This document shows positions 39,639-47,215 of a DNA stretch of 54,148 nucleotides, piece by piece. This stretch comes from Dehalococcoidia bacterium (GTDB lineage: Bacteria > Chloroflexota > Dehalococcoidia > Lucifugimonadales > Australimonadaceae): NCBI GenBank assembly GCA_022449765.1, contig JAKUPZ010000012.1:1-54148 (forward strand), in the 5' to 3' direction. The notes beneath the pieces are model-generated. The model had not been told where the DNA came from, did no database searches, and worked only from the letters and a program-made list of their open reading frames with translations. Position 1 is the stretch's first letter. Every line of letters begins with the position of its first letter. The translations under genes and the position numbers were made by a program.

Positions 39639-40217
39639 ATGGAATCTTCAAATAAATCAAAACGTAATTTTCTTTTTTTCGTAATAAGCGTTTCTCCTTT
39701 CCTCGCATTAGTTGCTTTGCTGACGTGGGGTCAATTCCGAACCGATGACTCTTTAGGTATGGCTCAAAGTCATTCTCAATTCAATGATATGCCCAGTGAA
39801 TATAAATTAGCCCCTACTTTCGCAGGGAATGACATATATACAGGTAAAGCTATTGATTTCGATGAATCCCAAGCAAAGGCCACAATGGTTACTTTCTGGT
39901 CTTCCTGGTGCGTTTCTTGCAAGTCAGAAGCTGCACAAATTGCGAAGCTCTATAAGGACTACGAGGGGCAGCCAGTTGAATTCATTGGGATTTCAATTTG
40001 GGACGAATCCGGCAGTGCATACCGATATATAGAAAATTTTGCTATCCAGTACCCTAATATCCTGGATTCTCGTGGTCGCGCAGCGGTCGCGTTTGGAGTA
40101 AGAGGTGTACCAGAAAAATTTTTCATTGACTCCAATGGCCGTGTAGTACATCAGATCAACGGACCTACAACTCCTTCAAAAGTTCGTAATGTTATTGATT
40201 CGCTTCTTCAGTCATGA
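39639..40217 (+). CDS. Thioredoxin-fold, TlpA/ResA-like membrane-anchored protein
   Basis: A 192-residue protein with an N-terminal membrane anchor (about residues 10-31) and a thioredoxin domain outside the membrane. The active site is W-C-V-S-C with Cys91 and Cys94. The cis-Pro region is V-P-E-K-F-F-I-D. Proteins of this type reduce disulfides in cytochrome c or other extracytoplasmic proteins. AGGT lies 5 nt before the ATG. Its stop overlaps the mutY start by 4 nt. The pairing with mutY is probably one of transcript organisation and not of pathway. Confidence 0.87.
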   Translation: MESSNKSKRNFLFFVISVSPFLALVALLTWGQFRTDDSLGMAQSHSQFNDMPSEYKLAPTFAGNDIYTGKAIDFDESQAKATMVTFWSSWCVSCKSEAAQIAKLYKDYEGQPVEFIGISIWDESGSAYRYIENFAIQYPNILDSRGRAAVAFGVRGVPEKFFIDSNGRVVHQINGPTTPSKVRNVIDSLLQS

Positions 40218-41116
40218 AGGCTGAGAAGGCAAAACCGGAAATTACTATTCAAGAGGCTATTGAAACTTGGTATAAATCAAATGGAAGAGATCTCCCTTGG
40301 CGCCGAACTAAAGATCCTTACAAAATTTTAGTCTCAGAGATAATGCTGCAACAAACGCAAGTAAGCAGAGTGGTTCCAAAATATATGCAGTTTGTTAAGG
40401 AATTTCCGTCTTTTCCTTTGCTTGCAGAAGCTCCCGTAGCTGAAGTTATTCGCATATGGTCCGGAATGGGCTACAACAATCGAGCTGTGCGCCTGCACAA
40501 ACTTGCTGGAATAGTAGCTTATGAATTGAAAGGTGTCTTACCTAGCACAGTAGAGGAACTCAAAAAATTACCCGGGATCGGTGAATATACTGCGGCCGCA
40601 GTAGCATGCTTCGCATTTGGTTCAACTCATCCAATTCTCGATACTAATATTTACCGTGTCTTGAGTAGGATTTTCCATGGAACTAATCCTCCTTCAAAAC
40701 AAGTCCTTCATGTCCTTGCAGGGGAATTAACACCGAAAGCTGCTTCTGCATCCTCTTGGAGCCAAGCACTTATGGATATTGGTGCAACCATATGCAATAT
40801 TAGGCGCCCTCAATGCATTAGCTGCCCTGCTATGAAGTACTGCCACGCAGCACCTAAATTGCAGGACGGATCGAGTCAGATGTTAGCTGTCGACTCAGCT
40901 CCTCCTATCCCCAAGCAATCCAAATTCCACGGTTCTCCACGGTATTTTCGCGGGCGGATAATCGATATATTGATAAACGCTGGTGAAAATGGAGTTTCTG
41001 AGGAGGAGCTAATACGTTCGCTAGAAAACAATGATTTTGACATCAATGGTTTAATAACTGCCTTAGAATCGGATGGCTTGGTTAAGCGCGTGCCTGGGAG
41101 AATCACGCTCCCATGA
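40214..41116 (+). CDS. mutY: A/G-specific adenine DNA glycosylase MutY, winged-helix C-terminus
   Basis: A 300-residue base-excision enzyme that removes A mispaired with 8-oxoG. The catalytic Glu is in S-E-I-M-L-Q-Q-T-Q-V (Glu42). The helix-hairpin-helix is L-P-G-I-G-E-Y-T-A and the catalytic Asp is in I-L-D-T-N-I-Y-R-V. The [4Fe-4S] cluster is C-x6-C-x2-C-x5-C around residues 195-211. It lacks the MutT-like C-terminal domain of E. coli MutY. Instead the last 60 residues look like a winged-helix domain, as I recall for actinobacterial MutY. It overlaps the TlpA-like gene by 4 nt and the convergent Ham1-like gene by 14 nt. Confidence 0.93.
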   Translation: MKAEKAKPEITIQEAIETWYKSNGRDLPWRRTKDPYKILVSEIMLQQTQVSRVVPKYMQFVKEFPSFPLLAEAPVAEVIRIWSGMGYNNRAVRLHKLAGIVAYELKGVLPSTVEELKKLPGIGEYTAAAVACFAFGSTHPILDTNIYRVLSRIFHGTNPPSKQVLHVLAGELTPKAASASSWSQALMDIGATICNIRRPQCISCPAMKYCHAAPKLQDGSSQMLAVDSAPPIPKQSKFHGSPRYFRGRIIDILINAGENGVSEEELIRSLENNDFDINGLITALESDGLVKRVPGRITLP

Positions 41117-41726
41117 GTAATTGAAAAAATTGCCGCACTGCGGGTCGGAGTTTTTCCCAAGGGTCTATTTCGCTTTTTTGTATAGGATCCACTAATTGCC
41201 AAATAGGTATTCCTTCTTGTGAGGTCCACAACCCATCGAACCAAAACCCTTCGTCAGCATTTTCATTTGGCCTATATGTCTTCCCTACTAAGCCAGAGGC
41301 TCCTTGAGATTCCCAAGCATTGAGTAATATGCCGGATTTAGCTATTGCAATCGCTTCGGTCCAATAGCATTTACGTTCATCACCTTCGTACCTACTCATC
41401 AGCTTGATCAGCTCGTCGGCTCTTTGAAAACCTGAAAGTCCAGAATCGAAATGCCGCCTAGTGTGCAAGCTGCACCATGAGGGCTCCAGGGCCGGTATCT
41501 GCACTCCGCCATCAGTAGCTATCGTGATTTCATTATCTAATCTTGAGGCGCTTGCGGCTTTTGCAACTGCGATAGCCAAATGTGAGCCCTGTGTCTCTTT
41601 ATCATCTTCGTCGATGCTCAGGTCGAGTCGTTGCTCAGAAGAGATATTTATATCAAGCCCATTGAGCAGCCGTGCTATACGCTCTATCTTCGCACTGTTA
41701 GATGTCGCTATACGTAAGTTAATCAT
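41103..41726 (-). CDS. Diverged Ham1/RdgB-like NTP pyrophosphatase
   Basis: A 207-residue protein. The N-terminal segment I-A-T-S-N-S-A-K-I matches the T-x-N-x-x-K nucleotide loop of Ham1/RdgB, and A-T-D-G-G-V-Q-I corresponds to the A-D-D-S-G-L block. The later G-x-x-S-A-R-x-A-G block and the final H-R motif are not recognisable, so it is diverged. The family hydrolyses non-canonical dITP, XTP. ATG 41726 overlaps the mutL stop (ATGA), so translation is coupled. A longer frame from 41798 is not chosen. Its place beside mutL and mutY fits genome-protection roles, though activity is uncertain. Confidence 0.7.
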   Translation of the reverse strand: MINLRIATSNSAKIERIARLLNGLDINISSEQRLDLSIDEDDKETQGSHLAIAVAKAASASRLDNEITIATDGGVQIPALEPSWCSLHTRRHFDSGLSGFQRADELIKLMSRYEGDERKCYWTEAIAIAKSGILLNAWESQGASGLVGKTYRPNENADEGFWFDGLWTSQEGIPIWQLVDPIQKSEIDPWEKLRPAVRQFFQLLMGA

Positions 41727-43450
41727 TGTATGCGGCCAAATTCCTTCTCCAGGGATTGAAGGGAGATACGCAAAAGTGTAGGTCTTCCATGGGGGCAATG
41801 ATTAGGATTGCCCTCGTTCACCAAGGCGTTACCGAGCGCCTGTATCTCGCTAATGCTGAGTTTCTGCCCAGCGCGTATTGCACTGTGGCATGCTAAGGAA
41901 GCAGCAATATTAGCATGCGTATCTGTCAAATCTGTATTTCTTGCTAGTGACTGAAGTGTTTCGTTGATAAATTTTTTGATATCCATGCTCCGGCCAACCA
42001 AGGGTACGCTTCGTATCAGCAAAGAATCATTCCCAAATGCTTCGAAATTAAGCCCGTAGCGCTCAAAAGAATTTGAATATGACGAAATTACATCCATTTG
42101 CTCGGGAGTAAGATCTACCACTATCGGTTGGAGCATCGGTTGAATTTCTGGCGCTTTGAGCTCCCACTGACTTAACAATCGATAATACAAAAGAGATTCA
42201 TGAGCGGAGTGCTGGTCGATGAGGTACATCCCATCCCCACCATCAGCGACAAGAAACATATTTGCTATCTGTCCTACCATTTCTAGATGAGGGAAATTTG
42301 TACTTGATCCAACAATTGTGTCCGGGATTTGTTCAGCACGTTCAGGAAATCGAGATGCGTAGGTCCCATCGAGATTAGCAGGAAACCCAAATCCGGGCTG
42401 ATTACTTGCTTCAGGAACAGCAGTATATGAATTAATAGCGATGCCGTGAGCCTCAATGACTGGGTATTGCTTCAATATGGCTTCCCTGATTGCCCGATGG
42501 ACACTAGAGAAACCATCATTTTCATTTACTAGTCGTACTTCTCTTTTGTTGGGATGCACATTGACATCAACTTCAGTAGACGGAATCTCTAGGAATATAA
42601 CTGAAATTGGGTAATTGCCTTGCATCAGTAGGCCTCTGTATGCTTCTTCAATTGCAGCAGCGATGGATCTATTGGTAATCCATCTCCCATTGATGAAAAT
42701 ACTTATACCAGTCCTATTGCCCTTGTAGTGCTCAGGGGCCGAGGTGAGGCCCATTACCTGGTATCGCCCAGCATGTGAATTAACCTCTATCATTGAGTTT
42801 GCTTGGTTAACCCCACGCAATGCGCTAATAACATCTCTCAACTGCCCATTTCCCGATGTTACTAGTTTATTTTTGTTATCTGCAGTGTACGTAAATTTGA
42901 CATGCGAATTTGCTAAAGCCAAATGTTCTACTGTGTTCAGGATTCTCGATCCCTCAGCCTGGTATGACTTTATGAATTTTAGCCGTGCAGGAATGGTCGA
43001 AAATAGTGATTCAACAAGAATCGAAGTTCCAAGTGATGCGCCAACCTGCTGGGGTGGAGATATTTGCCCGTTCTCAATATTTGCCAAAAAAGCGCTATCT
43101 GAGCCGGTAGGTCGTGTAACAAGCGTCACTTTACTTGCGGCAGCAATGCTCGCTAGAGCTTCTCCCCGAAATCCAAATGTACTGATACTCGATAAATCTT
43201 CAACTGTTGCAAGCTTACTAGTGGCATGGCGATGAAACGCCAGATCTATCTCATCAGGTGAAATGCCACATCCATTATCAGTGACTCGAATCCAAGACAA
43301 GCCACCAAGCTCAACTTGGATTGAAATTTCAGTTGAACCAGCATCAATAGAGTTTTCTACAAGCTCTTTGATTACTGACGCAGGTCTTTCTATAACTTCC
43401 CCCGCAGCAATCCTGGCAGCAATTTCAGCTGGCAATACTTTAATACTCAT
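41723..43450 (-). CDS. mutL: DNA mismatch repair protein MutL
   Basis: A 575-residue GHKL-type ATPase. The N-terminal blocks are I-A-A-G-E-V-I-E-R-P, E-L-V-E-N-S-I-D-A-G, T-D-N-G-C-G-I and F-G-F-R-G-E-A-L. The C-terminal half has D-Q-H-S-A-H-E-S-L-L-Y-Y, A-C-H-S-A-I-R-A-G and C-P-H-G-R-P. These C-terminal motifs are those of nicking-type MutL, but the second Glu of D-Q-H-A-x2-E-x4-E is Tyr here. The ATG at 43450 follows AGGA. It lies 60 nt after the ArsC-like gene and is coupled to the Ham1-like gene. MutS is not in the window. Confidence 0.95.
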   Translation of the reverse strand: MSIKVLPAEIAARIAAGEVIERPASVIKELVENSIDAGSTEISIQVELGGLSWIRVTDNGCGISPDEIDLAFHRHATSKLATVEDLSSISTFGFRGEALASIAAASKVTLVTRPTGSDSAFLANIENGQISPPQQVGASLGTSILVESLFSTIPARLKFIKSYQAEGSRILNTVEHLALANSHVKFTYTADNKNKLVTSGNGQLRDVISALRGVNQANSMIEVNSHAGRYQVMGLTSAPEHYKGNRTGISIFINGRWITNRSIAAAIEEAYRGLLMQGNYPISVIFLEIPSTEVDVNVHPNKREVRLVNENDGFSSVHRAIREAILKQYPVIEAHGIAINSYTAVPEASNQPGFGFPANLDGTYASRFPERAEQIPDTIVGSSTNFPHLEMVGQIANMFLVADGGDGMYLIDQHSAHESLLYYRLLSQWELKAPEIQPMLQPIVVDLTPEQMDVISSYSNSFERYGLNFEAFGNDSLLIRSVPLVGRSMDIKKFINETLQSLARNTDLTDTHANIAASLACHSAIRAGQKLSISEIQALGNALVNEGNPNHCPHGRPTLLRISLQSLEKEFGRIQ

Positions 43451-43510: not shown

Positions 43511-43861
43511 TTATATATTGAGCAATTCTTTTATTTGCTTAACCGAAGCACCTGGGATAATGGTACCGTCTATAACTAAAAGTGGTCGCCTCCAGTAGCG
43601 CGGTTCTTCAAGTAAAAGCTCGAACATGGCTTCTTCAGTCAATGTCTCCGCCAATATTCCACTCTTTTTGAACGCAGCAGATTTAAAGTTGAAAATGGTG
43701 CTAGGCAACTGATCACCCAAAAGTTTTCTTAGTTCAGCATCTGAAAATTTTTCTTTAAAAAAATCTTTTTCCGTAAAATCCTGACCTGCCTGCAAAAGCA
43801 ACGCTTTTGCTGTTCGGCAGGTTCCTCATTTCGCCCAATGTGCTAAAAATACATCTTTCAC
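43511..43861 (-). CDS. ArsC-like (arsenate reductase/Spx family) protein with in-frame TGA, probable selenoprotein
   Basis: A protein of 116 residues if the TGA at 43826-43828 is read as selenocysteine (Sec12). It begins at GTG 43861, with GAGGTG at 43867-43872 and 5 nt spacing. The translated start M-K-D-V-F-L-A-H-W-A-K-U-G-T-C-R-T-A-K-A aligns with E. coli-plasmid ArsC, where Cys12 lies in N-P-A-C-G-T-S-R. The downstream part has W-R-R-P-L-L-V-I-D, like the arginine-binding segment of the family. Without read-through the remaining frame from a TTG at 43801 lacks the active site and has no ribosome site. A SECIS-like hairpin follows the TGA. It would reduce arsenate, or act as a Spx-like redox protein. 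A frameshift or decay is less likely because both flanks are in the same frame. No selA/selB/selC genes are in the window. Confidence 0.8.
43784..43822 (-). promoter_or_regulatory. Candidate bacterial SECIS element inside the ArsC-like gene
   Basis: On the minus strand a two-tier stem starts 3 nt after the TGA. ACCTGCC (43816-43822) pairs with GGCAGGT (43784-43790). After an internal loop (GAACA against A), GCAAAAGC (43803-43810) pairs with GCTTTTGC (43792-43799). The apical loop is GTT. The loop begins with G, 23 nt after the TGA, inside the range known for bacterial SECIS. All 15 pairs are perfect. Confidence 0.75.
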
Positions 43862-43879
43862 TATTTCACCTCAATTCGC

Positions 43880-43934: not shown

Positions 43935-44402
43935 ATGACTGAATTTATTTTATTGCTAGTTAGATGGATTCACTCTGTTGCAGCACTAACATGGGTTGGT
44001 GGCGCTATTTTTTACTGGTTCATCATGAGGCCATCGATACAAACAGGAATATTACCGGATCCAATCATTCAGTTTGCCCGGAAAGAATTTGGACAAATCG
44101 TTATTCTCTCAATGTGGGCACTGCTAATTACTGGAGCTATTCTATTCTTTGAAAGAATTTCCTTACCATCAGCCACCCCTATCTATGTGATGGTACTTGC
44201 CATAAAAGTAGCGCTGTCTGCCTGGATGTTCTTCCTTACCGTAGGACCCAAAGGTCGAGCTGCTATTAAAGTCGCACGCCAGGGTAGATGGCGGAATATG
44301 GTTGATGCGTTAGGCCATATTAATATGACCGTTATTTTAGGCTTGGCAATATTTTTACTGTCAGACTACTTAAGGCAAATCATAGAAAATCACGTATCAT
44401 AG
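43935..44402 (+). CDS. CopD-like integral membrane protein
   Basis: A 155-residue membrane protein with four predicted helices. The first helix contains R-W-I-H-S-V-A-A-L-T-W-V-G-G-A, the pattern of CopD-type and related heme- or copper-associated proteins, with the His as possible ligand. A second conserved-looking His lies in D-A-L-G-H-I-N-M. It may take part in copper handling or heme binding. ATG 43935 has no clear ribosome site; a TATCAT box 7 nt upstream could produce a leaderless message. It lies 7 nt before a Trm112-like gene. Confidence 0.7.
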   Translation: MTEFILLLVRWIHSVAALTWVGGAIFYWFIMRPSIQTGILPDPIIQFARKEFGQIVILSMWALLITGAILFFERISLPSATPIYVMVLAIKVALSAWMFFLTVGPKGRAAIKVARQGRWRNMVDALGHINMTVILGLAIFLLSDYLRQIIENHVS

Positions 44403-44674: not shown

Positions 44675-44700
44675 TTTATCAAAATGGGATGGGAGAGCGT

Positions 44701-45882
44701 ATGAAGTTACTTGCATTAATTTCTGCATTGGTTCTTGCAATGGCAACCGTTGCCTGTAGCAGTGACCCTGAAATTGTAGAAAAAATCGTAGAAGTAGAAG
44801 TGGAAAAGATTGTCGAGAAGACAGTTGAAGTACCTGTAGAGAAGGTTGTAGAAAAAATTGTCGAGAAGGAAGTAGAAGTTACTGTCGAGAAAATCGTCGA
44901 AAAGCCCGTGGAAAAAATTGTAGAGAAAACCACTACAGTTGAGGTAGAGAAGGACCCAGGTTCGTTGGTAATCTATTCGGGTCGTAAAGAGAGCCTTGTC
45001 GGGCCTATCATCGAGCAATTCGCTGACGCTACTGGCATTAAAGTTGATGTCAAATACGGAAAATCAGCAGCAATGGCAGCAACCCTCAATGAAGAAGGTT
45101 CTAATAGCCCTGCAGATGTATTTTATGCGCAGGATCCAGGAGCCCTTGGTTCAGTAGAGGGCATGATGCAGGCATTACCTACTGCAACGTTGGAGAAAAT
45201 TCCAGCATGGGCACAGGATGATGACGGCAAATGGGTTGGTGTATCTGGCCGGGCTCGAGTGCTCGTCTACAGCCCTACCCGCGTAAAGGACAATGAGCTA
45301 CCTAACACCATTCTTGAGCTTACCCACCCAAGATACAAAGGGCGCTTAGGCTGGGCACCAACCAATGGTTCCTTGCTAACGATGATTACCGGAATGCGTG
45401 AGGTATGGGGCGAGGAAAAAACCTCAAACTGGATAAAAGGCTTACTAGCCAATGATATCAAGATATACCCCAAGAACACACCTCAGGTTCAGGCTGTTCA
45501 CGATGGTGAAATCGATTTTGGTCTAGTAAATCACTATTACCTCTATCGCTTCGTTACAGAAGCCGGTGAAGATTTCAAGGCACGTAACTACCACGTTCCA
45601 AGTGCAGGACCTGGTGCGCTAGTGATGGTTTCTGGTGCTTCTGTACTTAAAACAGCAAAAAACAAGGATAACGCTGAGCGATTTATCAATTTCATGATTT
45701 CAAAGGTCGCACAGCAGTACCTGGCAGGACAAATTTTTGAATACCCATTAGTTGATGGAGTGAAAACTAACCGTTTGCTTACTCCAATAGCTGATATCAA
45801 ACAACCAGATATTGCCCTCTCTGATCTATCAGACTTGGCAGGAACAACCGACCTATTGCGTTCATTGGGAGCTCTTCCATAA
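44701..45882 (+). CDS. Ferric-iron-type ABC transporter binding lipoprotein 1, long repeat linker
   Basis: A 393-residue lipoprotein. The signal peptide ends in A-T-V-A-C with Cys19. A Glu/Val/Lys-rich repeat (residues 24-84) follows, then the binding domain starting S-L-V-I-Y-S-G-R. The N-H-Y-Y-L-Y-R-F segment (Tyr279-Tyr280) is the paired Tyr of FbpA/FutA iron-binding proteins. ATG 44701 follows GGGAG; a start at 44689 is upstream of that site. It is a near-duplicate of the protein at 46166 with a much longer linker. It lies after a Trm112-like gene on the same strand with its own promoter, and before a structured RNA element. Confidence 0.88.
   Translation: MKLLALISALVLAMATVACSSDPEIVEKIVEVEVEKIVEKTVEVPVEKVVEKIVEKEVEVTVEKIVEKPVEKIVEKTTTVEVEKDPGSLVIYSGRKESLVGPIIEQFADATGIKVDVKYGKSAAMAATLNEEGSNSPADVFYAQDPGALGSVEGMMQALPTATLEKIPAWAQDDDGKWVGVSGRARVLVYSPTRVKDNELPNTILELTHPRYKGRLGWAPTNGSLLTMITGMREVWGEEKTSNWIKGLLANDIKIYPKNTPQVQAVHDGEIDFGLVNHYYLYRFVTEAGEDFKARNYHVPSAGPGALVMVSGASVLKTAKNKDNAERFINFMISKVAQQYLAGQIFEYPLVDGVKTNRLLTPIADIKQPDIALSDLSDLAGTTDLLRSLGALP
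44770..44952 (+). repeat. Degenerate EKIVEK-type repeat coding region
   Basis: These bases code for about 61 residues made of repeats of the form V-E-K-I-V-E-K with variants (V-E-V-E-K, V-E-K-P). The pattern has heptad-like spacing of Val and Ile, so it could form a coiled coil or a stiff stalk between lipid anchor and binding domain. The second gene (46166) has only about 20 such residues. Repeats of this kind change length easily by slippage. Confidence 0.8.
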
Positions 45883-46165: not shown

Positions 46166-47215
46166 ATGAAGATATTCAGTTTAATTTCTGCAGTGGTCTT
46201 AGCGATGGCATTAGTTGCTTGTAGTAGTGACCCTGAAATTGTCGAAAAAGTTGTAGAAGTAGAAAAAATTGTTGAGGTCGAGAAAGACCCAGGTTCATTG
46301 GTGATCTACTCAGGTCGTAAAGAGAGCCTCGTTGGTCCTATCATAGAGCAGTTTTCAGACGCTACTGGCATCGAAGTTGAGGTCAAATACGGAAAATCTG
46401 CAGCAATGGCAGCAACCCTCAGTGAAGAAGGTTCAAACAGCCCTGCGGACGTATTTTATGCACAGGATCCAGGAGCGCTTGGTTCAGTAGAAGCCATGAT
46501 GCAGGCATTGCCGGCTGCAACATTGGAGAAAATTCCAGCATGGGCACAGGATAATGATGGCAAATGGGTCGGTGTATCTGGCCGAGCTCGTGTCCTTGTC
46601 TACAGTCCTGACCGTGTAAATGCTAATGATTTGCCAAAGGACATCAGTGAACTAACTGACTCGAAGTGGAAAGGGCGCCTTGGATGGGCACCAACAAACG
46701 GTTCCCTGCTAACAATGATTACCGGAATGCGTAAGGTATGGGGCGAGGAAAAAACCGCAGAGTGGATCAAAGGCTTGCTGGCAAACGATATAAAGATTTA
46801 CCCAAAGAACACTCCTCAAGTTCAGGCCGTTCACGATGGTGAAATCGACTTGGGTCTAGTAAATCACTATTATCTCTATCGATTCGTTACAGAAGCCGGT
46901 GAAGATTTCAAGGCACGTAACTACCACATTCCTAGTGCTGGCCCAGGTGCTTTAGTCATGGTTTCTGGTGCGTCAGTTCTTAAAACAGCAAAAAACAAAG
47001 ATAATGCTGAACGATTTATCAATTTCATGATTTCAAAGGTTGCACAGCAGTATCTTGCAGGGCAAATTTTCGAGTATCCTCTTGTAGAGGGAGTAAAGAC
47101 TAACCGTCTTCTTACACCTGTAGAGGATATCAATCAACCAGATATCGCCTTGTCTGACCTATCAGACTTGGCGGGCACAACAGAATTATTGCGTTCATTG
47201 GGGGCATTGCCTTAA
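46166..47215 (+). CDS. Ferric-iron-type ABC transporter binding lipoprotein 2, short linker
   Basis: A 349-residue near-duplicate of the protein at 44701, with the same lipobox (V-A-C, Cys19), the same binding domain S-L-V-I-Y-S-G-R, the same Tyr-Tyr motif (N-H-Y-Y-L-Y-R-F) and the same C-terminus L-R-S-L-G-A-L-P. The repeat linker is only about 20 residues long. Duplication of gene plus downstream RNA element is the simplest origin. GGAG lies 5 nt before the ATG. It should feed the permease at 47389. Two binding proteins with different stalk lengths may sample different distances from the membrane or different ligands (inference). Confidence 0.9.
   Translation: MKIFSLISAVVLAMALVACSSDPEIVEKVVEVEKIVEVEKDPGSLVIYSGRKESLVGPIIEQFSDATGIEVEVKYGKSAAMAATLSEEGSNSPADVFYAQDPGALGSVEAMMQALPAATLEKIPAWAQDNDGKWVGVSGRARVLVYSPDRVNANDLPKDISELTDSKWKGRLGWAPTNGSLLTMITGMRKVWGEEKTAEWIKGLLANDIKIYPKNTPQVQAVHDGEIDLGLVNHYYLYRFVTEAGEDFKARNYHIPSAGPGALVMVSGASVLKTAKNKDNAERFINFMISKVAQQYLAGQIFEYPLVEGVKTNRLLTPVEDINQPDIALSDLSDLAGTTELLRSLGALP

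Follow-up and report, generated by a model that had tools for sequence, protein, structure and literature searches.

Does the short ArsC-like gene that is interrupted by a TGA codon in this stretch of DNA (the window, 54,148 nucleotides) encode a selenocysteine-containing protein, and is that protein an arsenate reductase? Here, we provide comparative sequence evidence that the locus very probably codes for a member of the ArsC/Spx family in which selenocysteine (Sec) is read from the in-frame TGA at the active-site position. Its function is less certain, and probably lies closer to that of Spx/YffB-type thiol-disulfide proteins than to arsenate reduction, as judged from motif and profile comparisons.

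Reading frame and genomic surroundings

The frame extends from a GTG start to a TAA stop and contains the TGA, at codon 12, as its sole internal stop (Table 1). The 116-aa read-through frame matches PF03960 (ArsC) with 39.2 bits (E = 8.8e-10) and thus exceeds the curated cut-off of 24 for superfamily membership. The initial annotation of the locus had described this singly interrupted frame, the position of the TGA on the catalytic cysteine of the family and a ribosome-binding site ahead of the GTG, all of which hold: residue 12 aligns with Cys12 of ArsC, and a Shine-Dalgarno-like motif is present. When the complete genome was searched at the DNA level with PF03960, the gene emerged as the only ArsC-family place, with one TGA inside. 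It was also the single result when the entire window was scanned mechanically for read-through TGA codons combined with a SECIS-type hairpin, large ordinary open reading frames excluded. The ordinary open reading frame list holds just a 96-aa piece of the gene that starts at 43801, downstream of the TGA. Standard gene calling would lose the active-site end in this way, and the protein is therefore probably mis-annotated across the lineage.

Table 1. Positions of the predicted selenoprotein gene, its sequence elements and its neighbours in the window
Feature	Position	Strand	Basis
Predicted selenoprotein gene, ArsC/Spx family (PF03960), 116 aa, GTG start (43861), TAA stop (43511-43513)	43511..43861	-	Sequence, translation, profile searches
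In-frame TGA, predicted Sec12, first residue of U-G-T-C motif	43826..43828	-	Translation and homologue comparison
TGC codon, Cys15, putative resolving partner of Sec12 in UxxC	43817..43819	-	Cys in 47/48 homologues
Shine-Dalgarno-like GAGGTG, 5 nt upstream of GTG start	43867..43872	-	Sequence
Putative bacterial SECIS, 8-bp stem GCAAAAGC / GCUUUUGC, GUU loop, within the coding frame	43792..43810	-	Folding and homologue comparison
Hairpin plus lower helix CCUGCC / GGCAGG, an extension in the window sequence that only some relatives have	43785..43821	-	Folding and comparison
mutL, directly downstream of the selenoprotein gene, same strand	41723..43450	-	Adjacent in each of the 13 homologues of the family and in one from a different family
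Small protein, no Pfam match, hydrophobic by sequence, divergent from the selenoprotein gene	43935..44402	+	Near the selenoprotein gene in the same 14 loci

The position between mutL and the divergent small gene is conserved in 13 of 13 homologues from the family of the host and in one homologue from another family. Elsewhere in the window (39639-40217, plus strand), a TlpA-like redoxin gene overlaps a MutY/endonuclease III-like gene (40214-41116, plus strand) by four bases, which is another case of a redox gene adjoining a DNA repair gene, comparable to the pairing with mutL. Two tandem paralogues on the plus strand (44689-45882 and 46166-47215) resemble ABC-type solute-binding lipoproteins and share 315 of 349 aligned residues; close to its start, the former contains a VEK-rich repeat tract that is longer than that of the latter.

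Decoding of the TGA codon

The genome (1.61 Mb in 35 contigs, 96.8% complete) encodes a tRNA-Sec with anticodon UCA as well as selA (537 bits), selB (351 bits) and selD (373 bits), the components for which the initial annotation had suggested a search and whose joint absence it regarded as evidence against its reading. The selD gene (G000 C3:77799-78722, locus L018) has an in-frame TGA of its own, in the motif CAGUAGK, with an 8-bp hairpin (GGA loop) behind it, and represents a second selenoprotein gene. As this hairpin has the same form, it serves as an internal control for the type of SECIS element used by the host. That the host has reassigned TGA, to Trp or Gly for instance, is the least credible of all explanations, because TGA is the stop codon of mutL, of three further neighbouring genes and of 6 among the window's 37 long open frames, and because relatives carry Cys rather than Trp or Gly at the TGA column. 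The ordinary TGA stops and the Cys residues led us to reject it.

The hairpin downstream of the TGA begins 15 nt past this codon, with a spacing of 23 nt between UGA and loop. In the fold GCAAAAGC-GUU-GCUUUUGC with the lower CCUGCC/GGCAGG helix, all eight stem pairs form and the free energy is -18.6 kcal/mol (z -3.2). Only about 0.3% of synonymous-codon shuffles of the window gene attain eight pairs. An Rfam search of the window and the gene region gave no match to an RNA family, which is to be expected because bacterial SECIS elements have little sequence in common. Published rules for these elements ask for a loop of 3-9 nt, a stem of 4-16 bp, a G in the first two loop positions, a distance of 16-37 nt from the UGA and a minimum free energy of -7.5 or lower (PMC13188914, Fig. 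2), and the hairpin agrees with all four rules quoted there.

The structure is also maintained among relatives that carry the TGA. At the same offset, 31 of the 40 Sec homologues compared form all eight pairs and a further seven form seven pairs (38/40 with seven or eight), and the loop starts with G in 39 of them. Both-sided, compensatory changes occurred at five of the eight stem pairs. Overall, 303 of 320 stem cells are paired across the Sec homologues, compared with a maximum of 281 when the 3' arms were dealt among the sequences and with 111-203 when the partner was slid. The eight Cys homologues, with a mean of 2.75 of 8 pairs at this position, are without the hairpin. Residue 24 is Gln in 33 of 40 Sec forms versus two of eight Cys forms, and the hairpin may thus also shape the protein sequence. 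The 8-bp stem is absent at this offset from two Sec forms (L059 and L069). One of them, the TGA homologue L059 (G027:C184), contains an insertion, its frame is disturbed, and it may be a gene in decay or the product of faulty assembly.

Exchange between TGA and Cys codons is apparent throughout the order. Homologues were found in 13 of the 16 genomes searched in the family, each with exactly one in-frame TGA, and in 145 of 197 genomes of the order, where the codon is TGA in 137 and TGC or TGT in eight; in a sample of the class, matches occurred in 62 of 393 genomes. The TGA column was identical in each of the 40 TGA-form sequences that were compared. None of the full-length homologues read had an unrelated codon at this column. 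The initial annotation had named such codons, or scattered further stops, as outcomes that would contradict it, and neither was encountered. Viral contigs were searched for relatives as well, and none were found. Two TGA-form copies apiece are present in the genomes G153 (L066, L067) and G520.

The co-occurrence of TGA with the Sec machinery is less strict. Three of the eight Cys-form genomes (G045, G055 and G056) are without selA above the cut-off, and the genus g8 contains both a genome with TGA and selA and a genome with TGC and no selA. The other five Cys-form genomes, all of one genus, retain selA, so that loss of the Sec machinery is not the sole route to Cys. Conversely, the link between TGA and selA is imperfect because ten TGA-form genomes have no full selA match; nine of these are MAGs of 55-88% completeness and the tenth has a partial match. 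The order-wide contrast in selA is accordingly modest (Fisher P 0.025), since most of the order has the Sec machinery. In the gene tree, the Cys forms appear in several places, corresponding to five changes, with weak deep forks.

A single base distinguishes TGA from TGC or TGT, and a nonsense mutation in a pseudogene or a miscalled Cys codon could in principle have produced the interruption. As 137 genomes from many families share the in-frame TGA, with a conserved hairpin downstream of it, either origin is exceedingly improbable, and both were rejected on these grounds. The selenocysteine reading put forward in the initial annotation is instead supported by the Sec machinery, by a SECIS-type hairpin with compensatory changes, by the order-wide TGA/Cys exchange and by the use of TGA as a normal stop. 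From the anatomy of the gene and the comparison with its relatives, we propose that SelB carrying Sec-tRNA-Sec(UCA) would bind the in-frame hairpin just past the UGA, which would then be decoded as Sec12. The product would be a thioredoxin-fold ArsC/Spx protein with its catalytic cysteine replaced by selenocysteine.

Family affiliation and predicted function

Whether the protein is closer to ArsC or to Spx was evaluated with profiles, active-site residues and structural models. A profile of 29 homologues matched Spx best among solved structures (2.7e-23) and reached about 1e-13 with E. coli ArsC. Each of the 29 homologues also matches Spx models. For the window protein itself, the closest profile is TIGR01617 (Spx/MgsR), with 46 bits against a cut-off of 75.05, while the ArsC model TIGR00014 scores 31.3 bits against a cut-off of 106.05; the protein is above the cut-off of no NCBIfam model. 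AlphaFold models were poor (pLDDT 51.7 from one sequence, mean 59.8 from two sequences). Spx ranks first with the two-sequence model, but this poor model reaches only E 1.3e-3 and a TM of about 0.34, and the fold assignment therefore rests on the sequence profiles.

Arg60, Arg94 and Arg107 form the arsenate-binding triad of ArsC. In the alignment to K-12 ArsC, Arg94 is invariant (R92 in the window protein), Arg60 is replaced by N, S or A, and Arg107 by A, T, F or G in the homologues. At position +3 from the catalytic residue, 47 of 48 sequences have Cys where ArsC has Ser. The Spx features UxxC (CxxC in Spx) and Arg92 are both present in the selenoprotein. The motif U-G-T-C-R had been read correctly in the initial annotation, and its Cys at +3, which differs from the Ser of ArsC, points to Spx. 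The label ArsC-like stands for the superfamily and calls for correction as to function, as the motif is Spx-like and two of the three arsenate-binding arginines are missing. At the level of sequence, the superfamily links the protein to ArsC, its motif and profile link it to Spx, and the curated cut-offs place it in neither.

A true arsenate reductase with Sec12 in place of the catalytic Cys of ArsC would agree with the PF03960 match, with the alignment of residue 12 to Cys12 and of R92 to Arg94, and with the name in literature use. However, this function is less likely because the arginine triad is incomplete, and the TIGR00014 score is far below its cut-off. Furthermore, mutL and the gene of a small protein that lacks a Pfam match flank the selenoprotein gene in place of ars genes, and neither an ArsB nor an ACR3 efflux pump was found in the 97% complete genome, which casts doubt on the label 'arsenate reductase'. 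We consider this function improbable.

Among the remaining possibilities, we slightly favour a general thiol-disulfide oxidoreductase. As expected from the chemistry of the family, the Sec12 selenolate would attack an oxidised substrate, Cys15 of the U-x-x-C motif would resolve the adduct as a Se-S bond, and a cellular thiol reductant would regenerate the enzyme. Our second choice, clearly less likely, is a redox-sensing regulator of the Spx type, i.e., a transcription factor that would bind the alpha-CTD of RNA polymerase and in which a Sec-Cys switch would replace the CxxC disulfide. The TIGR01617 and Spx model matches, the Spx structures as best hits, and the agreement in UxxC and R92 are in line with such a regulator, but the TIGR01617 score remains under the cut-off and the protein, at 116 aa, is shorter than Spx with 131-132. 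It is tempting to speculate, on slightly weaker odds still, that the Spx-type selenoprotein acts across the order as a selenium-dependent redox sensor or regulator and not as an arsenate reductase, and that, being mutL-adjacent in the family, it is possibly tied to a response to oxidative damage.

Comparison with known proteins

Selenoproteins with an ArsC-type domain have been recorded in marine metagenomes, as the initial annotation had mentioned and as the literature confirms (PMC1088965, PMC2398784). Under the name 'Arsenate reductase 2' (cd03032, UxxC), the Global Ocean Sampling (GOS) survey of 2008 recorded 42 metagenomic sequences (PMC2398784, Table 2). This selenoprotein shares with the window protein the ArsC-type domain and the UxxC motif, in which Sec takes the place of the first Cys of CxxC, and both presumably belong to the same subfamily (cd03032). 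The 'arsenate reductase' selenoprotein from the Sargasso Sea (COG1393, PMC1088965) is of the same superfamily and likewise has Sec at the catalytic Cys position, but has UxxS where the window protein has UxxC. The NCBIfam model NF041106 (ArsC_rel_Se_1) describes an ArsC family (seleno)protein with UxxC (PMC13188914, table), i.e., also an ArsC-related UxxC selenoprotein, and is matched by 26 of the 29 homologues (best E 1.6e-9). A search of the window genome with this model (cut-off 85 bits) yielded no match at E 0.001, and the window protein falls outside it. In the literature covered, which is incomplete, no description of such a selenoprotein was found for SAR202-type or Dehalococcoidia lineages.

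Among solved structures, Spx of Bacillus subtilis (1z3e, 6ghb) is the best profile match and has the CxxC motif and the conserved Arg92. It differs in having Cys instead of Sec and in its greater length, and RNA polymerase binding is a feature of Spx. E. coli ArsC (1i9d) shares the superfamily, the Cys12 position and the equivalent of Arg94, but has Arg60, Arg107 and Ser at +3, whereas the selenoprotein is without both arginines and has Cys at +3. ArsC/Spx-like UxxC selenoproteins have thus already been reported from ocean metagenomes, and the window gene is a well-supported further member, now with genome context. In this context, a selenoprotein of the type found in metagenome reads represents a stable, order-wide gene in which Sec predominates and Cys is exceptional (137 to 8).
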